Source of the DNA: Posidoniimonas polymericola | GTDB taxonomy: Bacteria > Planctomycetota > Planctomycetia > Pirellulales > Lacipirellulaceae | Length of the DNA: 64,000 nt | Direction of reading: 5' to 3' | NCBI RefSeq assembly: GCF_007859935.1 | Contig: NZ_SJPO01000004.1 | Span: forward strand, 310,001 to 374,000 | Shown: positions 1 through 17,376 of the stretch, piece after piece | Numbering within the stretch: position 1 is the stretch's first letter | How the letters are laid out: each line of letters begins with the position of its first letter | Position numbers and translations under genes: made by a program | The notes under the pieces: model-generated | Told to the model about the DNA's origin: nothing | The model's input: the letters and a program-made list of their open reading frames with translations, nothing else | Database searches by the model: none

Positions 1-1182
<1,182 letters not shown>

Positions 1183-1241
1183 CGACTCAACTTTCTAAAG
1201 TTTTGCTTGTGGTGGTTGAATCTCGCCGTTGCACGAGCAGC

Positions 1242-1853
1242 CTAGCCGGCCAGCTTCTTGGCGATCTTCGCGACGTGCTCGCCCTGGAAGCGGGCGATCG
1301 ACAGCTCGTTCTCCGAAGGCTGCCGCGAGCCGTCGTCCTTGGCCATGGTGGTGGCGCCGTAGGGCGTGCCGCCCGAGATCTCGCCCATCTCCGACAGCCC
1401 CTCGCAGCTGTAGGGCACTCCCACTACCAGCATGCCGTGGTGCAGCAGCGTGGTGTGGAAGCTGGTGATGGTGGTCTCCTGCCCGCCGTGCTGGCTGGCA
1501 GTCGACGCGAACACGCTGCCCGGCTTGCCGACCAGGGCGCCCTTCTTCCATAGCCCGCCGGTCGAGTCGAGGAACGACCGCATCTGCGCCGCCATGTTGC
1601 CAAAGCGGGTCGGCGTGCCAAAGATCACCGCGTCCGCCTCGGCAAGGATGTCGGTGGTCGCCTCGGGCACGTCGGCGAACGCCTGACGGGCCTCCAGCGC
1701 GCCCATCTTCTTCAGCACCTCGTCGGAGAGCGTCTCCGGGACCTGATAGACCGAAACTTCGGCGCCGTCGACGCTCTTGGCCCCCTCGGCGACCGCCTCT
1801 GCCAGTTGGTAGACATGTCCGTAGGTGCTGTAGAAGACGATCGCGATTTTCAT
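1242..1853 (-). CDS. wrbA: NAD(P)H:quinone oxidoreductase WrbA (flavodoxin-like)
   Basis: 203 residues, the usual WrbA length. Two-electron reduction of quinones with FMN protects against oxidative stress. The FMN phosphate-binding loop is near the N-terminus ([15 protein letters not shown]). Further family motifs are [18 protein letters not shown] around residue 80 and [19 protein letters not shown] around 120-140. The C-terminal part with [10 protein letters not shown] is also conserved. The gene is upstream of, and co-directional with, the catalase at 1-1182, a sensible functional pairing. A longer overlapping frame at 1195-1926 on the same strand is out of frame and rejected. Confidence 0.95.
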
Positions 1854-2138
1854 CGTGGAAGAACCTGCTGCCGGGGGTGAACGCTGACGGAAATCTTGCC
1901 GGACGCGTAGTGCGCATCCGAAGCAAGGGTCAGCAGTCCGGTAGCAGGGCGTGTGCCAATCGTGACGAGGCCGTCCGCAAACGATCCAATTGGCGCGTGT
2001 GGGCCCTAAGGAATAGAGGACCCAAGCAATAGAGTGGCCGATGCGGCTAGGTCAGCAGCTGCCCACCGGTCGCCAAACGCCCGCTTCGGGCGTTTTGGAA
2101 CCACGCTGCCACCAAGAGCGAGTGGCGTAGAGAGAAGA

Positions 2139-2375
2139 CTACCAGAGCGAGAACTGGGACGGCTCCGGCGACTCGTCGTTCGCGAGCGCCACTTCTAGCC
2201 GACGAGCAATCTCGGCGCGGATCTGAAGGCGGATCCGCCAGCGGCGCCACGCCCCGGCGTTAACGAGCAGGGGCTCGTACTCCGTCCGAACCGCCGGCTC
2301 GATGACCGCCAGGTGCGTCGCGCAGACCGCGGCGTCGTAGCGGGCAGGGCCGTCGACGACGAAACCGGATTCCAT
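2139..2375 (-). CDS. Small hypothetical protein, 78 aa
   Basis: Function unknown. The start at 2375 (MESGFVVDG) is chosen because a strong Shine-Dalgarno AAGGAGG sits five bases upstream; the open frame extends further up to 2411 but without that support. The protein is soluble, with an Arg-rich middle (WRRWRIRLQIRAEIARRLE) that looks like an amphipathic helix and an acidic tail ending QFSLW. No domain is recognised. Coding status rests on the ribosome-binding site and amphipathic composition. Confidence 0.55.
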   Translation of the reverse strand: MESGFVVDGPARYDAAVCATHLAVIEPAVRTEYEPLLVNAGAWRRWRIRLQIRAEIARRLEVALANDESPEPSQFSLW

Positions 2376-2770
2376 CCCATCCTCCTTCGAGTCGCCTACA
2401 TGGGACAGCAAGCCTGCTGGCCGGCAAGCCCCAGTTCTGCACCGAGTCTAGCACGGGGCCGGAGAGGGAAGCAAGTTTTCTTACAACGCCCCACCCTCGC
2501 GCTGTACATAACATGCTATCGGTATCCGAGGAAATCACTCACTGGCCTTAGAGATTTGCCCGGCGTAACGGCGGCGGGTATGCTGATGCAAACGTCTCCG
2601 ATGATGAGGCGGGTAGTGATCCTCTGGCACTAGGATTCCAACCGCGGAGACCGGCGTATCGTCGGTCGACCTAGGGTTATTCACGCCGCAAGGTCAATAC
2701 TTTCACACCGTCAAGACGGCGAAATCGTAGACGGCAGCAGGCCCAAATCAAGACAACCATTGAGTGACTA
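2376..2770. other. Non-coding stretch, no clear element
   Basis: About 395 bases between the divergent small gene ending at 2375 and the exported protein at 2771. It must hold both promoters, but I see no convincing -35/-10 pair, repeat or RNA structure. Short open frames here lack ribosome-binding sites. Confidence 0.5.
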
Positions 2771-4420
2771 ATGAGCCCCCACCTACCTCGTCCGAACTAC
2801 TTCGCTACTCTCTTTCTGTGTGTCGCGCATCTGGCGACCAGTTCCACCGCAGCTAGCGGACTTCAAACGCTCGATTCCGTAGAGACCATCGCTCTTTCCG
2901 GGCAAGCGGTCCCCGGCTTTGAGGGCAGGACTTTTGAGAACTTTTTCAGCAAAGCCGTCCTGAACAACTACGGCGAGGCCGCGTTTCTCGCGAGACTGGA
3001 GTGCTGCGGGCCGCGCGATGGCGCGTTCACAAATGCAGGAGGCGATCTCAAAACGCTCGCCCTCGTTGACACACCTGCCTTCGCTGTGGGTGGCAACTCA
3101 TTTCGAGAGTTCAGTCATGTGCAGATCGACGATCAGGGGCGCACGTTTATCCGCGGCGTTGGAAATGGCACTCCCCCCAGTTTCGACCTGATTGCCACCG
3201 GCCCTCAATCTGGTGAGCTTACCGCGATTGCGGAGTCGGGAGACTTGGTGGACCCCTCCGAGCCGGGCGTCACCTACCGATCTTTCGACTTTTCTCACTT
3301 GGGAATCGGCGGTCGCCTGGCGGGGCCTGCGGCTACGTGGACGAACGGCAGCACCTCGCCGCCCGGTGAAGTGCTGTTCGTATCAGACGGCGGGCCGGCG
3401 GCGCCGCTCCTGCGTGCGGGCGATCAGCCGAGCTTCACCGCTCCAGGCGAGGTGTATGCCACAACCGATACCTCGGCATTCGAGCGACCAGTTGTCAATG
3501 CAGCCGGCGCGATTGCAGTTCGCGTCACGACAATCAATCCACTGGAGATCTTTGAGTCCGTTCGACACATCATCAGGATCGATTCTCAGCAGGGAGTCGA
3601 ACGGATTGTGACAGAAAGCTTCGGCTCCGACCCCGCCCTCGGATCGCTATTCGCACTCACTTTCCCGGTCATCAACGACAACGGTGACATCGGTTTCGGA
3701 GCAATCGTCGACGGCATTGGCAACTCGTTGTGGTTGAGCAGGCCCGGCGACAATCCAAGCCTGTTGGTAAGAGAAGGCGACGAGCCGCCGACAATTCCCG
3801 GCGGCCGATTCTTAGCCATTCTCACTAGTGATTCTGCCGAGTCGCCCCTCGGCATTGCGGGCGACGGAAGTCTCGCCTTCGAGGCGGTTGTCATTGGCCC
3901 AGAGTTTGGGAACAACGACAGCGATTCACTTTGGCTCGCGACTCCGGACGGCCCCAAGCCGATCGCGATCGAAGGCCGAATCGCTCCCGGTGTGAACGGT
4001 GTGTTCGCTAGCGAGAGCAGCACCATCGGCGACTTGATTGGTAATAGCAGCGTCAACGAGCGGAACCAATTGGCGTTTACTGCTCAGTACGTGCAATCCA
4101 CTGGAAGGCTACGGACCGGTCTATTCGCCACCGACTTTGGGGGCGATCTCCACAAGGTGGCGGCTCCTGGAGACCTGCTCGAAATGGAACCCGGAATCCT
4201 GCGAGAAATCGAGTTCGTCGAGTTCCGAGGAGATATCGAACACGGGGCGCTTGGAAGCGGATTGAACGACAGTGGACAGATCTTGTTCTCGGCGAGGTTT
4301 ACGGATGGAACTGCGGGAGTCTTCTTGTCGCGGATCGTTGCCGTGCCCGAGCCGCTTGCGTTCTCTCTCGCCTCGTTGGCGTGCGTCTGCGTCTTTGGGC
4401 CGCGAACGCGCCGGTCGTGA
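2771..4420 (+). CDS. Exported protein with PEP-CTERM-like tail (choice-of-anchor/DUF7453-like)
   Basis: 549 residues. The N-terminus has a signal peptide with a hydrophobic stretch (YFATLFLCVAHLATSS). The body is built of repeated short beta units with recurring phrases such as LNNYGEAAFLARL, INDNGDIGFGAIV, VNERNQLAFTA and LNDSGQILFSARF. This is the pattern of planctomycete/myxobacterial proteins annotated as DUF7453 or choice-of-anchor families, probably a beta-propeller-like fold. The C-terminus reads VPEP, then a hydrophobic helix, then Arg residues (RTRRS), which is a PEP-CTERM-like sorting signal. Function is unknown; likely cell-surface or periplasmic. The family name is recalled from pattern, not searched. 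Confidence 0.85.
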   Translation: MSPHLPRPNYFATLFLCVAHLATSSTAASGLQTLDSVETIALSGQAVPGFEGRTFENFFSKAVLNNYGEAAFLARLECCGPRDGAFTNAGGDLKTLALVDTPAFAVGGNSFREFSHVQIDDQGRTFIRGVGNGTPPSFDLIATGPQSGELTAIAESGDLVDPSEPGVTYRSFDFSHLGIGGRLAGPAATWTNGSTSPPGEVLFVSDGGPAAPLLRAGDQPSFTAPGEVYATTDTSAFERPVVNAAGAIAVRVTTINPLEIFESVRHIIRIDSQQGVERIVTESFGSDPALGSLFALTFPVINDNGDIGFGAIVDGIGNSLWLSRPGDNPSLLVREGDEPPTIPGGRFLAILTSDSAESPLGIAGDGSLAFEAVVIGPEFGNNDSDSLWLATPDGPKPIAIEGRIAPGVNGVFASESSTIGDLIGNSSVNERNQLAFTAQYVQSTGRLRTGLFATDFGGDLHKVAAPGDLLEMEPGILREIEFVEFRGDIEHGALGSGLNDSGQILFSARFTDGTAGVFLSRIVAVPEPLAFSLASLACVCVFGPRTRRS

Positions 4421-6237: not shown

Positions 6238-7631
6238 CGCCGACGCTCCTTCCACTGCTCCTTGAAGGTCTTCGCTGCCGGGTCGGGGAAGTCGCGGGTC
6301 GCCCGCCATTTGTAGAGCGGGTCGAGCTTGGTCCCCTGGATCGGCCGGGAGAGCACGTGGCCGATCCGGCCGAGCTTGCCGCCCAGCCCGTACAGCCACG
6401 GCCGCCGCATCACGAAGCTGAAGATGCGCATCTGCAGCGACTCGAGCACCCCGCCCTGCTTCTGCGCCGAGTTGCGGCGGTTGCGGAGCAGGTGGTGGTG
6501 CAGGTCGATCTGGACGGGGCAGGTCTCGGTGCAGGCGCCGCACAGTGACGACGAGTCCGACAGGTGCTTCCAGCTCGACAGCCCGCGGAGGTGTGGCGTG
6601 ATCACCGAGCCGATCGGGCCCTGGTAGGTCGTGCCGTAGGTATGACCGCCGACGTTCTTGAAGATCGGGCAGACATTCAGGCACGCGCCGCAGCGGATGC
6701 ACCGCAGCGCGTCGCGCTGCTCCTGGTCGGCCAAGAGCCGCGTGCGGTGGTTGTCCAGCAGCACGACGTGCATCTCTTCGGGCCCGTCGACCTCGCCCGC
6801 CTGGCGGGGGCCGCCGAGCTGCGAGTTGTAGCCGGTGAGGTGCTGCCCGGTGCCGGCGGTCGCCAGCAGCGGCAGCAAGAGCGCCAGGTCGTCGAGCTTG
6901 GGGATCACCTTCTCGATGCCCATCACGGCGATGTGCACCTTCGGCATCGCCGTGGTGAGCCGGGCGTTGCCCTCGTTCTCGGTGATCGAGATCATGCCGG
7001 TCTCGGCGACGCCGAAGTTCGCGCCGCTGATACCGACGTCGGCGTCGAGGTACTTCTGGCGGAGCACCTCGCGGGCGATCATCGTGAGCTGCTCGGGGTC
7101 GTCGGTGTCGGCCGACTTGAGCTTTTCCTTGAACAGCTTGTTGATGGCTCCCCGCTTGAGGTGCATCGCGGGGAAGACAAAGTGGTAGGGCGCCTCGCCG
7201 CGGAGCTGCACGATGAACTCGCCGAGGTCCGACTCGACGACCTCGAAGCCCTCGTTCTCGAGCAGCTCGTTGAGGTGGATCTCCTCGGTCGTCATGCACT
7301 TGCTCTTGACGATCGACTTCGCGCCGTGGGCGTGGATCACGCCGAGGATCGCCTTCCGGGCGTCGTCGCCGTTGCGGCACCAGTGGACCTTGACGCCGCG
7401 GGCCTCGAGGTTGTCGGCGAACTGCGGCAGCAGCTTGTCGAGGTTCTCGATGGCGTTCCACTTGATCTCGGCGGCCGCGGCGCGGGCCGAGGTGTAGTCT
7501 TGGAAGCGTCCCTGCGTGCCGCGGCGCGTCGTGACGTAGCCCGACAGCGAGCTGCGGAGGAACTGCCGCTGGTCGCCGTCGCCGGCGACCTGGGCCGCGT
7601 CGTGCTGAAATTGTTCGAGGGGCGTGCTCAT
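6234..7631 (-). CDS. lutB: LutB-type iron-sulfur protein for L-lactate oxidation
   Basis: 465 residues, the usual LutB size. A LUD domain (about 60-300) is followed by two ferredoxin-type clusters, CIRCGACLNVCP and CGACTETCP, in the C-terminal third. The C-terminal tail has family-typical FSFVMRRPWLYG. The ATG at 7631 (MSTPLEQF) is preferred because it overlaps the lutA TGA in ATGA; the frame stays open upstream to 7676 but this would overlap lutA by more. With LutA and LutC it forms the cytoplasmic lactate oxidation complex. Confidence 0.94.
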   Translation of the reverse strand: MSTPLEQFQHDAAQVAGDGDQRQFLRSSLSGYVTTRRGTQGRFQDYTSARAAAAEIKWNAIENLDKLLPQFADNLEARGVKVHWCRNGDDARKAILGVIHAHGAKSIVKSKCMTTEEIHLNELLENEGFEVVESDLGEFIVQLRGEAPYHFVFPAMHLKRGAINKLFKEKLKSADTDDPEQLTMIAREVLRQKYLDADVGISGANFGVAETGMISITENEGNARLTTAMPKVHIAVMGIEKVIPKLDDLALLLPLLATAGTGQHLTGYNSQLGGPRQAGEVDGPEEMHVVLLDNHRTRLLADQEQRDALRCIRCGACLNVCPIFKNVGGHTYGTTYQGPIGSVITPHLRGLSSWKHLSDSSSLCGACTETCPVQIDLHHHLLRNRRNSAQKQGGVLESLQMRIFSFVMRRPWLYGLGGKLGRIGHVLSRPIQGTKLDPLYKWRATRDFPDPAAKTFKEQWKERRR

Positions 7632-8359
7632 TGTCCGGCCAGCACCTCCGCTAAGTGGAGACATTTGGGCAGGCACTTGGCCTGCAGCTTCTCCTGGCGT
7701 GACAGGTAGCCCGAGATCTGCAACAGGCAGCTCGGGTCGTTGGAGATGACGTACTGGGCTTCGGTCTCGTCGATCGAGAGCGACTTGACCTCGGCCATAG
7801 CGGTGGAGATCTGCGGAAACTTGACCGCGAAGGTGCCGCCGAATCCACAGCAGGTCTCGGCCTCGGCCATCTCGATCAGCTCGAGCCCTTGGACGTTCGC
7901 CAGCAGCTTGCGGGGGGCGTCCTTGATGCCGAGCTCACGCAGCCCGTGGCAACCGTCGTGGAAAGTGGCGCGGCCAGAGAGCGACGCGCCGACGTCGGTC
8001 ACGCCGAGCTTGTCGACCAACAGCTCGCTGAACTCGTAGGTCCGCTCGGCGACCGCCGCGGCCTGCTGGGCGAGGTCGGTCCCCTCGAACAGGTCGCGGT
8101 AGAACACGCGGACCATCGTCGCGCAGGAGCCCGACGGCACGCCGATCAGCTCGGCGTCGGCGAAAGTCTTGAGGAAGTGCTTGGCGACCTCACGGGCGTC
8201 GTCCTGGAAGCCGCAGTTGAACGCGGGCTGCCCGCAGCAGGTCTGCCCCGGCGGGTAGTCGACCTCGTGGCCGACCCGTTCGAGCACGCCGGCCATCGCC
8301 AGCCCAATCTGCGGGTAGAGCTGGTCCACGTAACAGGGAATAAAGAGCGATACCTTCAC
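7628..8359 (-). CDS. lutA: LutA-type protein with two CCG domains
   Basis: 243 residues. Two cysteine-rich CCG domains: one with TCCGQPAFNCGF near residue 40 and one with TCCGFGGTFAVKFP near 180; both resemble heterodisulfide-reductase/glycolate-oxidase iron-sulfur subunits. The start is GTG at 8359, overlapping the stop of the upstream DeoR-type regulator (GTGA). The 3' end overlaps lutB (ATGA). The tight overlaps put regulator and lutABC in one operon. Confidence 0.94.
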   Translation of the reverse strand: MKVSLFIPCYVDQLYPQIGLAMAGVLERVGHEVDYPPGQTCCGQPAFNCGFQDDAREVAKHFLKTFADAELIGVPSGSCATMVRVFYRDLFEGTDLAQQAAAVAERTYEFSELLVDKLGVTDVGASLSGRATFHDGCHGLRELGIKDAPRKLLANVQGLELIEMAEAETCCGFGGTFAVKFPQISTAMAEVKSLSIDETEAQYVISNDPSCLLQISGYLSRQEKLQAKCLPKCLHLAEVLAGQ

Positions 8360-9249
8360 ACGCCCGCCTTGGTCACTTTGCCCGCCGCTTTGGTGGGATC
8401 CGACTTAGTAGATTTGCCGCCGGCCGACCTGCCACCGGACGGCTGCTGGGCCGTGGCCGGGCTGGCGATCAGCGTCTCGACTCCCGCCGCGCCGAGCGGC
8501 TGGAGGAAATCGGCGTTGGTTTGGTCGTCGGTAATCAACACGCCGACATCCGCCAGCATACCGAAAAACGATACCGAGCGCACGCCAAATTTACTGTGGT
8601 CTGCGCACAGGATCGACACGTCTGACAGGTCGAGCAGCCACCGCTTGAGCGATGCGTGGGCGACGCTCGCCTCGCTCATGCCGCGCCGCGGGTCGATCGC
8701 CTTGCACGACAGGAACGCCTTGTCGAACGCGAACTGCCGCAGCGTCCCCTCGGCGATCGGCCCCAGCATGCCGACCAGCGAGTCGTCGAGTTCGCCGCCG
8801 GTCAGGGTGGCGTGGATGTGCGTGCGGCCGGCCAGCAGCTGGGCAGCCTCGACCGAGTTGGTCACCACGGTCAGCGGCATGTCTGGCAGCGCGGCGGCCA
8901 GCTCAAGCACGGTGCTCGACGCGTCGAGGGCGATGGTGTCGCCCTCCCGGACCAACTCGACCGCGCGGAGGGCAATGGCCCGCTTCTGGGCAGCGTTAGT
9001 GGTCCGCCGGACCGAGATCGGCGGGTCCTGCCGGTCGTCCCGCAGTCGGAGCGCCCCACCGTGGGTGCGGACTAGCAGGCCGGCCTCGCCGAGCCGCTCA
9101 AGGTCGCGGCGGATCGTTTCCTCGGCGACCGAGAACCGCTGAGCGAGCAGGGCGACCCGCACCGCACCCTCTTGGTCCAAGAGGGCGAGGATCTGGTCGT
9201 GCCGCTCCTGGGGGAGAGGCGCCGCCTGCGGGAGGGCGTCCTGAGCCAT
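8356..9249 (-). CDS. DeoR-family transcriptional regulator of the rhamnose/lactate locus
   Basis: 297 residues from the ATG at 9249 (MAQDALP); the frame is open to 9342 but that would cover the divergent promoter. The N-terminal winged helix is typical DeoR: HDQILALLDQEGAVRV, then FSVAEETIRRDLERL and LVRTHGGAL. The C-terminal DeoRC sugar-phosphate sensing domain has LDASSTVLELA, VVTNSVEAA and LTGGEL. A Lys/Ser/Ala-rich tail of about 30 residues follows. The gene overlaps lutA by four bases and is divergent from the rhamnose genes. It is therefore the likely regulator of both arms, probably sensing a sugar phosphate such as rhamnulose-1-phosphate (inference). Confidence 0.9.
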   Translation of the reverse strand: MAQDALPQAAPLPQERHDQILALLDQEGAVRVALLAQRFSVAEETIRRDLERLGEAGLLVRTHGGALRLRDDRQDPPISVRRTTNAAQKRAIALRAVELVREGDTIALDASSTVLELAAALPDMPLTVVTNSVEAAQLLAGRTHIHATLTGGELDDSLVGMLGPIAEGTLRQFAFDKAFLSCKAIDPRRGMSEASVAHASLKRWLLDLSDVSILCADHSKFGVRSVSFFGMLADVGVLITDDQTNADFLQPLGAAGVETLIASPATAQQPSGGRSAGGKSTKSDPTKAAGKVTKAGV

Positions 9250-9313
9250 GAATTGATGTCCGAGGTTGCGTGTTTTTTTGTGGTATTGACTGGACGACGG
9301 CTTGACCGGCCCC

Positions 9314-9342
9314 ATTCTATGTGTGAACATGTGGCCTTTCAA
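9314..9342 (-). promoter_or_regulatory. Sigma-70-like promoter for the regulator-lutABC operon
   Basis: On the minus strand, TTGAAA (9342-9337) and TAGAAT (9319-9314) are separated by exactly 17 bases; each matches five of six consensus positions. Transcription would begin near 9307, about 58 bases before the ATG at 9249. Confidence 0.6.

Positions 9343-9375: not shown

Positions 9376-9378
<3 letters not shown>
9328..9378. promoter_or_regulatory. Candidate operator: CATGTGG / CCACATG inverted repeat in the divergent intergenic region
   Basis: CATGTGG at 9328-9334 lies inside the spacer of the minus-strand promoter. Its reverse complement CCACATG at 9372-9378 overlaps the ATG of the rhamnose aldolase gene. 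A DeoR-type regulator bound at both could control both directions. For the plus strand I see only a weak TTGACC (9302-9307) with GAACAT 17 bases later. This is a pattern observation only; seven-base arms could arise by chance. Confidence 0.3.
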
Positions 9379-11583
<2,205 letters not shown>

Positions 11584-11705: not shown

Positions 11706-13208
11706 ATGCAGTCCGCACACCTGGCAATCGACCTCGGCGCGAGCTCTGGCCGTGCGATGCTCGGCTTGCTCGACGGCGACCCGTTGCGGCTCGAGCTAGA
11801 AGAGGTGCACCGCTTCGAGCACCACGCCTGCTCGGTCCCGACCGGCATCGTGTGGAACCTTACCGGCATCTGGCGTCAGATCCTGCACGGCCTGTCGGTC
11901 GGCGCCGCGCGGTGCAAGGAGCGCGGCCTCGAGCTCACAAGCATCGGCGTCGACTGCTGGGGCGTTGACTTTGTGCTGGTTGGCGCCGGCGGCGACGTGC
12001 TCGGCCTGCCCCACTGCTACCGCGACGCCCGCAACGAACCGGCCAGCGACCGCGTGGTTGAAAGGCTGGGCGGCAACGAGGCGCTCTACGCCCGCACCGG
12101 CATCCAGCGGATGCCGTTCAACACGGTGTTCCAGCTCGAGGCGATCCGCGCCGCCGAGCCCGCGCAGCTCGACGCCGCCCGCCGGCTGCTGTTCCTTCCC
12201 GACCTGTTCCACTACTGGCTGTCGGGCGAGCAGGCGACCGAACGCACCATCGCCTCGACCGGGTCGCTGCTCGACATCCAATCGGGCGAGTGGGACCTTG
12301 GGCTGATGGAGTTGCTCGGACTGCCGAAGGAGATCCTCGGCCCGATCGTTGATCCGGGCGCGCAGGTAGGGTTGCTCCGTGACACGCTCGCCGACGAGAC
12401 CGGCGCGCCGCGCGGCCTGAAGGTCATCGCCCCCGCCTCGCACGACACGGCGTCGGCGATCGCCGCGGCGCCGGTCACCGACAACAGCGTGCCGTGGGCT
12501 TACCTGTCGAGCGGCACGTGGTCGCTGCTCGGCGCCGAGCTGCCGACGCCCTACTACAGCGAGGCGGCCTGCCACGCGCCGTTCACCAACGAGCGCGGCG
12601 TCGACAGCACGATCCGCTTCCTCAAGAACATCGCCGGGCTGTGGCTGATCCAAGAGCTGCGTCGCGAGTACGCCGACGCCGGCAGCGCGCACAGCTTCGC
12701 CGAGCTGGTCGACCAAGCCGAAGGCGTCGAGCCGTTCCGCACGCTGGTCGACCCGAACCACGCGAGCCTCGCCGCGCCGGGCGCCATGACGCCGCGGGTC
12801 GCCGAGCTGGCGGCCGCCGCCGGGCAACCAATCCCCGAGACGCCCGGCCAGTTCGTCCGGTGCTGCCTGGAGAGCCTGGCCCTCTGCTACGCCCAGACCG
12901 CCGGCAGGCTGGCGCAGTTCACCGGCCGGCCGGCCGAGCGGCTGCACGTCGTCGGCGGAGGCACCCAGAACAAGCTGCTCAACGGACTGACGGCCGGTGC
13001 GATGAACTGCGAGGTGCTGACCGGCCCGACCGAGGCGACCGCCATCGGCAACGCGCTGGTGCAGGCCATGGGCTGCGGCGTAATCGCGAATCTGACCGAG
13101 CTGCGGCAGGTGGTGGCCCGCTCGACGCCGGTCGACCGCGCCGAACCGGTTGGCGCCGCCGACCAGTGGCAGGCGGCCCGCGAACGCTTTGAAACACTGA
13201 GTCCATGA
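11706..13208 (+). CDS. rhaB: Rhamnulokinase
   Basis: 500 residues, FGGY family. Phosphorylates L-rhamnulose at C1 with ATP. The N-terminal phosphate loop is AIDLGASSGRAMLG, GVDCWGVDF follows near residue 80, and the DLFHYWLSG segment is near 160. The catalytic-base region is SHDTASA near 245, and a C-terminal ATP-binding VVGGGTQNKLLN comes near 415. Length is close to the enteric enzyme. 122 bases separate it from the aldolase gene and 98 from the isomerase; I see no terminator between them. Confidence 0.96.
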   Translation: MQSAHLAIDLGASSGRAMLGLLDGDPLRLELEEVHRFEHHACSVPTGIVWNLTGIWRQILHGLSVGAARCKERGLELTSIGVDCWGVDFVLVGAGGDVLGLPHCYRDARNEPASDRVVERLGGNEALYARTGIQRMPFNTVFQLEAIRAAEPAQLDAARRLLFLPDLFHYWLSGEQATERTIASTGSLLDIQSGEWDLGLMELLGLPKEILGPIVDPGAQVGLLRDTLADETGAPRGLKVIAPASHDTASAIAAAPVTDNSVPWAYLSSGTWSLLGAELPTPYYSEAACHAPFTNERGVDSTIRFLKNIAGLWLIQELRREYADAGSAHSFAELVDQAEGVEPFRTLVDPNHASLAAPGAMTPRVAELAAAAGQPIPETPGQFVRCCLESLALCYAQTAGRLAQFTGRPAERLHVVGGGTQNKLLNGLTAGAMNCEVLTGPTEATAIGNALVQAMGCGVIANLTELRQVVARSTPVDRAEPVGAADQWQAARERFETLSP

Positions 13209-13306: not shown

Positions 13307-14563
13307 GTGTCGAACCTCGAGCAGCGTTATTCCCTGGCCAAGGAGCAGTTCGCCGAGTGGGGCGTCGAAGCCGACGCCGCCCTGGCTAAGCTCTCGCAAG
13401 TGGCGATCTCGATGCACTGCTGGCAGGGGGACGACGTCACCGGCTTCGAGGGCGCCGACGAGCTCGGCGGCGGCCTGGCCGTGACCGGATCGTACCCCGG
13501 CAAGGCCCGCACGCCGGACGAGCTGCGGGCGGACCTCGACCAGGCGTACTCGCTGATCCCCGGCGACCACCGCCTGAACCTGCACGCCTGCTACGCCGAG
13601 ACCGGCGACGCGAAGGTCGAGCGGGACGGGCTGAAGCCCGAGCACTTCGCCGCCTGGATCGACTGGGCTAAGGCAAACAACCACGGGCTCGACTTCAACC
13701 CAACCTACTTCTCGCACCCCAATGCCGACGACGGCTTTACCCTCTCGCACCCCGACGAGGGGATCCGCCGCTTCTGGGTCGACCACGGGATCGCGTGCCG
13801 GGAGATTGGCGCCGCGATGGGCGCGGCGCTCGGCTCGGTCTGCGTCAACAACATCTGGATCCCGGACGGCTACAAGGACCTGCCGATCGACCGCCGCGGC
13901 CCCCGCGAGCGGCTCGCCGGCTCGCTCGACGCGATCCTCGCCAAGACGTTCGACAAGTCGCACCTGCTCGACGCGGTCGAGTCGAAGTTGTTCGGCATCG
14001 GCTCGGAGAGCTACGTCGTTGGCTCGCACGAGTTCTACCTCGGCTACGCATTGAAGAACGGTACGGTGCTGTGCCTGGACGCGGGGCACTTCCACCCGAC
14101 CGAGCTCTTGGCCGACAAGCTGAGCTCGGTGTTCCAGTACCTCGACCGCGTGCTGCTGCACGTCAGCCGCGGCGTCCGCTGGGACAGCGACCACGTGGTG
14201 CTGCTGACCGACGAGCTCAACGCCCTGGCCCAGGAGCTGGTCCGCGGCGACTACCTCGGCCGCACGCACATCGGCCTCGACTTCTTCGACGCTAGCATCA
14301 ACCGCGTCGCGGCCTGGGTGATCGGCACCCGCGCGACGCTCAAGTCGCTGCTGCGGGCGATGCTCGAGCCGATCGACCGGCTGATGGTCGCCGAGCGGGA
14401 GGGCGACTTCACCACCCGCCTCGCCCTGCTCGAAGAGGCGAAGCAGATGCCGTGGGGCGCGGTGTGGGACTACTACTGCGAGCAGAACAACACGCCATCA
14501 AGCGACTCGTGGCTGGCCGAAGTCAAGCGCTACGAGACCGACGTGCTGGCCAAAAGAAACTAA
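13307..14563 (+). CDS. rhaA: L-rhamnose isomerase
   Basis: 418 residues, the normal length. Interconverts L-rhamnose and L-rhamnulose using two divalent metals in a TIM barrel. The N-terminal [16 protein letters not shown] and LNLHACYAE are diagnostic of RhaA. Metal-site region [12 protein letters not shown] and the C-terminal [13 protein letters not shown] and [12 protein letters not shown] are also family hallmarks. Third gene of the rhamnose operon. Confidence 0.97.
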
Positions 14564-14678: not shown

Positions 14679-16115
14679 ATGAGCGAATCCGAATCCACCG
14701 GCGGCGAGTTTGAGCGCGAACCCGCGCCCAAGAGCTCGCTGCTCGGCTTCAAAAGCTTCATCGGCATGTACGCCGGCGAGCACTGTGCGGGCACCGAGCT
14801 GATGCTCGGCCCGCTGTTTGTGGCGGCCGGCGTCACCGCCTGGGACCTGATCATGGGCCTGTTGATCGGCAACGCCCTAGCGGTGCTGAGCTGGATGGTG
14901 CTGTGCGCCCCGATCGCGACCCGCGCCCGGCTGACGCTGTACTACCAGCTGGAGAAGATCTGCGGCCGCGGCTTGGTGACGCTGTACAACATCGCGAACG
15001 GGGTGGCGTTCTGCTTCCTGGCCGGGTCGATGATCACGGTCTCCGCGACGGCGCTCGGCGTGTGGTTCAAGTTCCCGATGCCCGGCCTCTCGGACACCTA
15101 CCCCAACTCCGTGGGCTGGGTGGTCGCCGTAGCGGCGCTCGGCGTGGTGGTCAGCTTTGTGGCGGCCGCCGGGTACAGCATGGTCGCCCGCTTCGCGAAC
15201 ATCGCCGCGCCGTGGATGGTGTTGGTGTTCCTGGCTTTCGGCTTCATCGGCCTGCGTGAGTTCATGAACGAGACCGGCGCCGAGGTCAACTCGCTGGCGT
15301 CCTTCTGGGAGCTCGCGCAGAACGACATCTGGAAGGGGGGCGAGCCGCTCGGCGGCCAATCCAAGTTCACCTTCTGGCACGTCATGTTCTTCGCCTGGTT
15401 CTGCAACATGGCGATGCACATCGGCATGAGCGACCTGTCCGTGTTCCGCTTCGCCAAGAAGTCTTGGTACGGCCTGGCCACGGCGTCGGGCATGTACGTC
15501 GGGCACTTCATGGCCTGGATCAGCGCCTCGATCCTCTACGCGCTACAGCTGCACCGCACGCCGGAGAACACCGACGTGCTGCCCGGACCGCTGGCCGACA
15601 ACGCCGCCGGCATCGCTGGCCTGATCTGCGTGATCATCGCCGGCTGGACCACCGCCAACCCGACCATCTACCGCGCCGGTCTGGCGTTCCAGTCGATCAT
15701 CCCCGGCGCGTCGCGGTTCTGGGTCACGCTGTTCACCGGACTGTTGGTCACGATTGTCGGCATGTTCCCGGGCGTCGCGATGGGACTGTTAGGATTCGTG
15801 GCGATCTACGGGCTGATCCTGATGCCGATGGGCGCCGTGATCTTCTGCGACTTCTGGCTGCTGCCGAAGCTCGGCCTGCGGTCGTACTACGCCGAGCACG
15901 CCCGGCTGCCGATCAACTGGGCCGCCGCGGTGGCCTGGCTCGGCACGCTGGCGATCTGCGTCGGGCTGGTGAAGGGCTTCCCCGACGTGATGATCGGCGA
16001 CGTGCGCGTGTTTGAGATCTACTTTGTGGCCCTGCCGGGCTGGTTTATCGCGTCGGCCCTCTACGTCGGGCTCAGCCAGGTCCTGCAGTCATCGAACCCC
16101 GCGGAGGCGGCATGA
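14679..16115 (+). CDS. Purine/cytosine permease-like transporter, candidate rhamnose importer
   Basis: 478 residues with about twelve hydrophobic segments. It resembles the NCS1/cytosine-purine permease fold, for example FIGMYAGEHCAGTELMLGP in the first helix region, AIATRARLTLYYQLEK-like loop and the long central helices. The substrate is not readable from sequence. Its position directly after the rhamnose genes suggests L-rhamnose, or a related deoxysugar, as substrate (inference). The TGA stop overlaps the start of the next small gene in ATGA, tying the two together. The N-terminal 25 residues are charged and cytoplasmic. Confidence 0.82.
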   Translation: MSESESTGGEFEREPAPKSSLLGFKSFIGMYAGEHCAGTELMLGPLFVAAGVTAWDLIMGLLIGNALAVLSWMVLCAPIATRARLTLYYQLEKICGRGLVTLYNIANGVAFCFLAGSMITVSATALGVWFKFPMPGLSDTYPNSVGWVVAVAALGVVVSFVAAAGYSMVARFANIAAPWMVLVFLAFGFIGLREFMNETGAEVNSLASFWELAQNDIWKGGEPLGGQSKFTFWHVMFFAWFCNMAMHIGMSDLSVFRFAKKSWYGLATASGMYVGHFMAWISASILYALQLHRTPENTDVLPGPLADNAAGIAGLICVIIAGWTTANPTIYRAGLAFQSIIPGASRFWVTLFTGLLVTIVGMFPGVAMGLLGFVAIYGLILMPMGAVIFCDFWLLPKLGLRSYYAEHARLPINWAAAVAWLGTLAICVGLVKGFPDVMIGDVRVFEIYFVALPGWFIASALYVGLSQVLQSSNPAEAA

Positions 16116-16324
16116 ACACCATCGCCCGAGTTGTGAGCCTAGTAGCGTTGGTCGGCACGATCGCCCCCGCGGCGATGTACCTCGCCGGCTCGATCGACCT
16201 CGACGCCACCAAGCTGTGGATGCTGGTGTTCACGGTGGTGTGGTTTGTTTCCGCGCCGCTCGCCGATCGCCAGACCAAGCTCGAGCAGATCGTCGAGGAC
16301 GCCGGCGAGCAGCCCGTGCTGTAG
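16112..16324 (+). CDS. Small two-helix membrane protein coupled to the permease
   Basis: 70 residues. Two predicted membrane helices (about 7-27 and 36-53) are followed by an acidic cytoplasmic tail (KLEQIVEDAGEQ). The ATG overlaps the permease stop codon, implying translational coupling and equal dosage. Small two-helix partners are known for several symporter families, so an accessory transporter subunit is the natural guess; no family is recognised. It is the last gene of the operon; the next gene is convergent. Confidence 0.75.
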   Translation: MNTIARVVSLVALVGTIAPAAMYLAGSIDLDATKLWMLVFTVVWFVSAPLADRQTKLEQIVEDAGEQPVL

Positions 16325-16401: not shown

Positions 16402-17376
16402 CTACGCCCCCCAGAGCGTGCTCGGGTACTCACCTCCCTCGACCAGCTTGGCGATCCGCTCCTGGGCAATCGGCAGGTCCTCTTGGTAGGTCATGCCGCA
16501 CCACAGCTCGTCGGTCTCGAACACGCGGACCGACATCAGGTGGTCGTCCATCATCTGGCGGGTGACGGTCGGGATCTCGTACTCTTGGGTCTCGCCGCGG
16601 GGGCTATCGAGGAACGCGTGGAAGCGTTCCTCTAGCTCGCCAAACACGGCTGCCGGGTAGCCCCACAGGTTCATCGACACGATCGCGTCGCCAGAGAGGG
16701 TCACCGCCTGCCCTTCGAGGGCCTCCATGACTGCGTCGTCGCCGGCGCGGGCGATGCTGTGCCGCTCGACGATGGTGGCCAGTGTGCCGTCGGGGTTCAC
16801 CTCACACACGCCGCGGCTCACCGTGCCGTGGTCCGACAGCGTGTTGCGGAGCTGGTAGCCGATCATCGCGCCGGTCATCGGTTGCGTATTACTCACGCCG
16901 GTCAGGAAGCCGCCCATCTTGGCCAGCGCAGTCGGGCCGTAGAAGTCGTCGGCGTTGATCACCGCGAATGGGCGGTCGATCAGGTCCTTGGCGCACAGCA
17001 CCGCGTGGCCGGTGCCCCACGGCTTGGGGCGGTCGACCGGCAAGTGGCGTTCGGGGACCGAGCTCTCTAGCTCCTGATAGGCGAAGTCGATCGGCGCGGC
17101 TGCGGAAGCCCGGTCAACAAACTTGTCGCGGAACTGCTGCTCAAACTCGCGGCGGACGACTAGAACAACCTTGCCGAAGCCGCCGGCCAGGGCGTCGTGG
17201 ATGGAGTACTCCATGATCGCCTCGCCGCCGGGGCCGACCGGCGCCAGCTGCTTCAGGCCGCCGTACCGCCGCGCGGCGCCGGCCGCCATGATCAACAAAA
17301 CCGGTCCGTCTGGGTTGCTCGCCACGCTGCCGCTCCGCTGCTTGATAGGTTTCTCGTACGGTGAACGAGCCCACAT
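16402..17376 (-). CDS. Nucleotidyltransferase (NDP-sugar pyrophosphorylase-like)
   Basis: 324 residues from the first ATG; about 25 N-terminal residues precede the conserved start of the fold. The nucleotide-binding loop is LLIMAAGAARRYGGLKQ, with the signature Gly-rich turn and Lys. Metal-binding INADDFYG is near residue 140, and TGHAVLCAKDL precedes it. The C-terminal YEIPTVTRQMMDD resembles UTP- or dTTP-sugar-1-phosphate transferases. Substrate unknown. The convergent rhamnose operon lies downstream; no pathway link is evident. Confidence 0.85.
   Translation of the reverse strand: MWARSPYEKPIKQRSGSVASNPDGPVLLIMAAGAARRYGGLKQLAPVGPGGEAIMEYSIHDALAGGFGKVVLVVRREFEQQFRDKFVDRASAAAPIDFAYQELESSVPERHLPVDRPKPWGTGHAVLCAKDLIDRPFAVINADDFYGPTALAKMGGFLTGVSNTQPMTGAMIGYQLRNTLSDHGTVSRGVCEVNPDGTLATIVERHSIARAGDDAVMEALEGQAVTLSGDAIVSMNLWGYPAAVFGELEERFHAFLDSPRGETQEYEIPTVTRQMMDDHLMSVRVFETDELWCGMTYQEDLPIAQERIAKLVEGGEYPSTLWGA

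Follow-up and report, generated by a model that had tools for sequence, protein, structure and literature searches.

A CodB-like permease with a small two-helix partner as a candidate sodium-coupled L-rhamnose importer of bacteria

In the bacterium Posidoniimonas polymericola, a gene for a permease of the nucleobase type lies among the genes of L-rhamnose catabolism and is followed by an open reading frame of only 70 residues, which raises the question of what such a pair transports. The first-pass annotation of the window, that is, of the whole stretch of 64,000 nucleotides that was analyzed, described it as a purine-permease-like transporter with a small partner and a likely deoxysugar importer, a role that we retain as a prediction from sequence. 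Our preferred reading, to which we assign a probability of about 0.7 on the strength of sequence comparison and structure prediction, is that the permease and the 70-residue protein would be the two subunits of a sodium-coupled L-rhamnose importer that adds a new branch to the NCS1 fold. The genes concerned are the following.

7628 to 8359, reverse strand: LutA/LdhH-like cysteine-rich protein (CCG domains), named by Pfam/NCBIfam scan
8356 to 9342, reverse strand: DeoR-family regulator, divergent; judging by its position, it likely controls the operon
9376 to 11583, forward strand: RhaEW-type bifunctional rhamnulose-1-phosphate aldolase/lactaldehyde dehydrogenase, score 1096.2 against a cut-off of 634 (9376 is the chosen start; the stretch scanned against NCBIfam was 9382 to 11583)
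11706 to 13208, forward strand: RhaB-type FGGY rhamnulokinase, NCBIfam score 451.6 bits, below the cut-off of 527.95
13307 to 14563, forward strand: RhaA, L-rhamnose isomerase, GTG start, NCBIfam score 689.8 against a cut-off of 572 bits
14679 to 16115, forward strand: permease of 478 amino acids with NCS1/CodB-like fold, ATG start; proposed large subunit of a sodium-coupled L-rhamnose importer
16112 to 16324, forward strand: two-helix partner of 70 amino acids, ATG start; proposed small subunit

The divergent DeoR gene and, in this order, the genes for RhaEW, the RhaB-type kinase, RhaA, the permease and the 70-residue protein make up a compact rhamnose operon. The unexpected presence of a nucleobase-type permease in such an operon was thereby confirmed, with both reading frames found at the coordinates listed and with RhaA and RhaEW scoring above their NCBIfam cut-offs. 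The small frame does start inside the permease stop codon, the two genes sharing the four nucleotides ATGA at 16112 to 16115 (GCATGAACACC). No sigma-70-like promoter was found within the operon on its own strand by a consensus scan, which is weak for this bacterial group. RhaEW yields L-lactate, as stated in the available part of a survey of rhamnose utilization (PMC3870299); the LutA/LdhH-like protein likely serves the oxidation of this L-lactate, and its gene, which shares four bases with that of the regulator, probably ties rhamnose use to L-lactate oxidation. Downstream of the pair and convergent with it lies a nucleotidyltransferase-like gene (16402 to 17376, reverse strand) whose NTP_transferase matches are weak; it is also kept beside the permease pair in a genome of the same genus (locus L002).

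The L-rhamnose importers known from the accessible part of the same survey belong to the DMT, MFS and ABC families, and genomes with no recognized rhamnose importer are reported there (PMC3870299). The genome of P. polymericola contains no match to the RhaT family (PF06379) at the family threshold, and its RhaS-like matches all lie below the cut-off. The permease itself does not match the curated RhaT model. It would thus share its proposed substrate and its place in the operon with RhaT, an L-rhamnose/H+ symporter of the unrelated DMT superfamily, and with RhaY (MFS) and RhaFGHJ (ABC), which are likewise of other protein families. No report of a sugar-transporting NCS1 protein, or of a rhamnose transporter of this kind, was found in the literature searched, which did not extend to TCDB and subscription papers, so that a prior report is possible.

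The relationship of the permease to NCS1 proteins was assessed by profile and structure comparison. The window permease matched no Pfam or NCBIfam family at an E-value of 1, the NCS1 model PF02133 was absent from the Pfam matches of 70 members of the permease family scanned singly and had no match across the P. polymericola genome, and what Pfam matches the 70 permeases and 64 small proteins had were scattered and attributable to chance. When compared with PDB sequences, neither the window permease nor the 70-row profile had a match at an E-value of 10. Below the NCBIfam cut-offs, CytX was matched by 23 and cytosine permease by 19 of the 70 members (best E-value 1.5e-16), the window permease itself having no NCS1-type match at this level. 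Whole-length homology to NCS1 was found by hhalign against six NCS1 proteins of the same phylum (probability 95.0, E-value 3.6e-8, 422 columns); against Escherichia coli CodB alone, 135 columns were aligned, through the motif WTT. Comparison with three SSF proteins of the same genome gave a probability of only 0.11, and the permease gene is not among the 18 stretches of this genome that match PF00474 (SSF), which argues against SSF homology.

The AlphaFold (AF2) model of the window permease (pLDDT 89.8, pTM 0.89) points the same way. Its best match in the PDB is CodB (7qoa; Foldseek E-value 3.5e-11; Z 33.5, rmsd 3.1, 394 residues aligned), followed by Mhp1 (Z 25.8 to 28.0), and SSS symporters rank below both (Z 23.4 and lower), so that the predicted model shows a LeuT fold nearest to CodB and Mhp1, as expected of an NCS1 protein. 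Taken together, the profile alignment, the fold match and the sub-cut-off NCBIfam matches make the NCS1 relationship well supported, although the permease family escapes the NCS1 model of Pfam. Of the label "purine-permease-like", the NCS1 part therefore stands, and "CodB-like" is the better wording. In the phylogeny proposed as a check, the permease did not group with nucleobase transporters: 40 family rows and 15 NCS1 rows were split with a support of 100/100 on a saturated stem, whose length of 9.34 changes per column keeps the tree from resolving the place of the family within or beside the NCS1 subgroups.

As described in the available part of the CodB study, cytosine is bound by Gln105, Trp108, Phe204 and the main chain of TM6 in a pocket that accommodates a single small ring, sodium is bound by the carbonyls of Gly29, Phe32 and Asn275 and by Thr278 and Thr279, and the two aromatics that sandwich the nucleobase (a TM3 Trp and a TM6 Phe or Trp) are conserved across NCS1 (PMC9379551). 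We compared these sites in an alignment of 40 rows of the permease family and 15 NCS1 rows. At the position of W108, all 15 NCS1 rows have Trp, whereas 39 of the 40 family rows have Leu, and the window permease has no Trp at all in TM3 (residues 84 to 128). At the position of F204, 14 of 15 NCS1 rows have Phe or Trp, whereas 36 of 40 family rows have Ala, with the reservation that the TM6 register is less certain, as hhalign placed TM6 elsewhere. The aromatic sandwich of NCS1 is accordingly missing from the family and, because neither this pair nor the Pfam model was found, we file the permease as related to NCS1 but outside NCS1 proper.

The sodium site tells a different story. Thr occupies the positions of both T278 and T279 in all 40 family rows, and among 108 distinct family proteins the Na2 threonines are kept in 107 (T324) and 108 (T325), as in NCS1 at the residue level. 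In TM1, all 105 rows that have a letter there carry E34, T39 and E40, and 104 of them carry H35, while W240, N243, H247, D252, R257, T325, P328, Y331 and R332 are identical in all 108 proteins; R257 and Y331 are the equivalents of CodB R216 and Y285. In LeuT-fold symporters, such a residue pattern points to sodium coupling and to a polar rather than an aromatic substrate site. The polar site of the permease may be a sugar site. The family thus has in common with CodB and other NCS1 proteins, including Mhp1, the LeuT-type fold, the profile match and the Na2 threonines; unlike them, it lacks the PF02133 match and the aromatic pair and has invariant polar residues in TM1 and TM6, a two-helix partner and a rhamnose gene context.

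In the databases, members of the family are named "nucleoside transporter" or "hypothetical protein", the former being the RefSeq product name of the relatives in Catenovulum adriaticum, Pseudoalteromonas KG3 and Alteromonas sp. 76-1. Read with the fold and profile relationship to CodB, these names could mean that the permease is a typical NCS1 transporter of nucleobases or nucleosides that came to lie in rhamnose operons by chance. With both sandwiching aromatics gone, the family on a separate branch, and rhamnose genes adjoining the permease in lineages that use three different pathways, this explanation is hardly credible.

To trace the gene neighborhoods, the best 80 of at least 572 relatives in named genomes were kept, a sample biased to close relatives, and 78 distinct loci remained after removal of the duplicates L031 and L034. 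These best matches come from Planctomycetota, Kiritimatiellota, Verrucomicrobiota, Lentisphaerae, Bacteroidota (Pontibacter, Cyclobacteriaceae) and Halomonas, and from metagenome bins labeled Acidobacteria, KSB1 and Caldithrix. Over 473 residues, the permease of genome G023, which belongs to the same family of bacteria as P. polymericola, is identical to its counterpart in Bythopirellula polymerisocia Pla144. Marker HMMs were built from neighborhood clusters, each scanned cluster being named by one Pfam or NCBIfam scan, and genes were called with a simple ORF caller that may miss some. Within this sample of the best 80, at least one rhamnose marker lies nearby in 52 of the 78 loci and none in 26; the markers are RhaA (30), the GH78 rhamnosidase (13), RhaM (10), RhaT (10), an RhaI-type isomerase (9) and rhamnonate dehydratase (6). 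When only its loci of at least 12 kb are counted, a marker is present in 39 of 54 and absent from 15. Among 20 further loci of relatives, three of which (L156 to L158) were chosen in the knowledge that RhaA was present, nine have no marker and seven have GH78, a gene that often lies directly downstream of the permease. The link to rhamnose is therefore borne out in distant lineages by marker genes of three non-homologous routes, which share no metabolites other than their starting compound, rhamnose, and their end product, lactaldehyde or lactate.

Since lactate is shared by all routes, the permease might move L-lactate (or lactaldehyde) instead of rhamnose. L-Lactate is the product of RhaEW, the window has a LutA-like gene close to its rhamnose operon, and in some Bacteroidota LutABC genes are found near the permease at L090, L093, L103 and L109, adjoining it at L090, L103 and L109, as does LutC alone at L107; it is because of these neighbors that lactate is kept as a rival. 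It would also account for the ten loci of the sample in which RhaT is already present. Nevertheless, LutA, LutB or LutC markers occur in only 4 to 5 of the 78 loci drawn from the best 80, the six loci of a divergent clade (L146 to L149, L153 and L154) lie beside GH78 with no Lut marker seen, and one relative adjoins genes for a mannitol dehydrogenase and a sugar kinase. Because of the contexts with GH78 only, rhamnose is preferred as the substrate and transport of lactate is considered unlikely.

The same GH78 genes (13 of 78 loci from the best 80 and 7 of the 20 further loci) allow a second alternative, in which the imported substrates are oligosaccharides that contain rhamnose, or a broader range of sugars and polyols, rather than mainly free L-rhamnose. 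RhaT and the permease occur together in ten of these 78 loci (L054, L055, L058, L065, L066, L069, L070, L074, L084 and L089), and in those that were read (L054, L055, L058, L066, L069, L070 and L074) RhaT lies between RhaA and the permease; a second presumed rhamnose importer next to the first would be redundant. In Pseudoalteromonas HL-AS2 (L172, 8956 to 13178), a fused relative with 39% identity adjoins genes for a protein of the mannitol dehydrogenase family and for a carbohydrate kinase, followed by CstA, possibly representing a polyol or uronate branch, and the permease of L139 is followed by an ADH and SDR pair (Pfam), with similar frames in L141. Several sugars or polyols may hence be substrates of the family, and rhamnose need not be that of every member. 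On the other hand, the Halomonas loci combine the permease with RhaM and a cytosolic, non-phosphorylative rhamnose route (rhamnonate dehydratase, lactonase and an aldolase of keto-deoxy-rhamnonate type), rhamnose enzymes directly precede the permease in C. adriaticum (RhaEW-RhaI-permease, with RhaM and DeoR nearby) and in the RhaEW-RhaI-permease operon of Pseudoalteromonas KG3, and the pocket of CodB, the nearest fold, takes a single small ring. Import mainly of oligosaccharides or of a wider set is thus rather doubtful, and free L-rhamnose remains our preferred substrate.

Permease relatives were also found in 10 records of a plasmid collection. In Alteromonas sp. 76-1 the relative is located on the ulvan-degradation plasmid with RhaEW some genes away; the paper on this plasmid, in its available part, mentions transporters, none of which is named as a nucleoside transporter or permease (PMC6431674). 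Among 149 genomes of the phylum, a small sample, RhaA is present in 14 (once each), the permease in seven and both in four, leaving 10 of the 14 RhaA genomes without the permease. In bins labeled KSB1 and Acidobacteria, the permease lies beside genes for an aldehyde ferredoxin oxidoreductase and a class II aldolase (L096, 4203 to 7659, with homologues in L100), perhaps another rhamnose-type route.

The co-occurrence of the small gene, the other check proposed, was examined with a profile grown from the 70-residue protein of the window and searched over 108 distinct loci. A separate partner gene lies just downstream of the permease in 94 of them, starting between −20 and +70 bases from the permease stop in 93 cases and with a four-base overlap in 27. 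In nine further loci, the profile detected the partner as a C-terminal fusion to the permease, and L006 is an additional fusion, seen directly and by genome search in one open frame. The partner is hence separate (94) or clearly fused (10) in 104 of 107 testable loci (L071, which ends at a contig end, was left out), or in 105 if L019 is counted, whose permease carries a tail of 98 amino acids with no match to the profile. Where the downstream sequence is long enough to tell, the small partner is absent from L087 and L101 alone. At L087, the permease stop is followed after 182 bases by the start of a frame of 104 amino acids, taken as RhaM.

Nothing else in the 108 loci matched the small-partner profile. 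Over 59 whole genomes it matched 31 places in 21 genomes, all 31 within about 140 bases of a permease by coordinate comparison, and none in the 37 genomes without a permease; the sole permease genome without a match is G009, in which the permease was found in two pieces. Four marine proteobacterial relatives of about 570 amino acids carry a C-terminal extension that matches the profile weakly (best domain i-E-value 2e-5, one near chance). Mapped on a 107-row tree, separate and fused partners require eight changes of state, at least five of them forced by well-supported branches. That fusion has recurred at the same end of the permease speaks strongly for a fixed 1:1 complex, and the fixed small partner claimed by the first-pass annotation is upheld as a matter of linkage. 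That the small protein is an independent membrane protein kept by translational coupling, as the two permeases without it might suggest, is very unlikely in view of these fusions and of its never being found away from a permease in the 59 genomes.

The two-helix nature ascribed to the 70-residue protein is supported by the predicted model of the natural fusion L070, with two confident helices at 476 to 501 and 507 to 529, and not by a model of the small protein itself; a joint alignment of permeases and small proteins misplaced the latter and was not used for folding. This fused hairpin (476 to 529) has no counterpart in the PDB matches listed, whose ranges end near 470 to 485, which has no bearing on novelty. 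The mean numbers of Lys and Arg in the small partners are 1.31 at the N-terminal end, 0.39 in the loop and 1.77 at the C-terminal end, suggesting that both ends of the hairpin are inside. This agrees with the cytoplasmic C-terminus expected of a 12-helix LeuT-fold permease. Small helical partners occur in SSS symporters (DUF3311, DUF4212, DUF485 and YhdT-type proteins) and in SGLT2-MAP17. These systems resemble the permease pair in joining a LeuT-fold symporter to a small helical protein, but the permease is not an SSF protein and the 70-residue family has no convincing match to their small-partner families: one of 64 small proteins matched DUF3311 at an E-value of 0.078, short proteins carrying little signal.

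In the mechanism that we propose, the two proteins would form one membrane complex that brings L-rhamnose, and perhaps related 6-deoxyhexoses, into the cell by sodium symport to feed the cytoplasmic RhaA, RhaB and RhaEW; substrate, ion and direction are what we infer. The large subunit would adopt the NCS1 version of the LeuT fold and bind sodium at Na2, formed by the G33 region of TM1 and by T324 and T325 of TM8. The sugar would occupy the place of the nucleobase in CodB, where the two stacking aromatics are gone, its hydroxyls probably being held by E34, H35, T39 and E40 at the TM1 break and by N243 and H247 of TM6. The small subunit, a helix hairpin with both ends cytoplasmic, might pack as the predicted TM13 and TM14 and could act in assembly, stability or gating. 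Points against this importer are the co-occurrence of RhaT, the marker-free loci, the HL-AS2 context, the Lut neighbors, the missing partners of L087 and L101, and the 10 of 14 RhaA genomes without the permease. Even so, the earlier idea of an NCS1-fold permease that is linked to rhamnose and nearly always has its partner stands up better than expected and is partly supported.

A broader claim, to which we give slightly better than even odds from alignments and models, is that the family represents a sugar branch of the nucleobase-symporter fold in several phyla, an obligatory large-plus-small sodium symporter in which a polar sugar site would have replaced the aromatic base sandwich. The permease, widespread and wrongly or never named, is probably a sodium-driven sugar importer of two parts. 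If true, this would fill the rhamnose-importer gap in Planctomycetota, Verrucomicrobiota, Bacteroidota and ulvan-degrading marine bacteria, which dismantle rhamnose-rich algal and plant polymers, and would show a route from a nucleobase pocket to a sugar pocket. It would also offer a small model for the dependence of some LeuT-fold symporters on a very small helical protein, and renaming the "nucleoside transporter" and "hypothetical protein" entries would touch many genomes. The family includes a permease of 799 amino acids at L022 (genome G051; 1174 to 3573, reverse strand), with an insert of about 200 residues in the loop preceding TM6 and a fused C-terminal hairpin.
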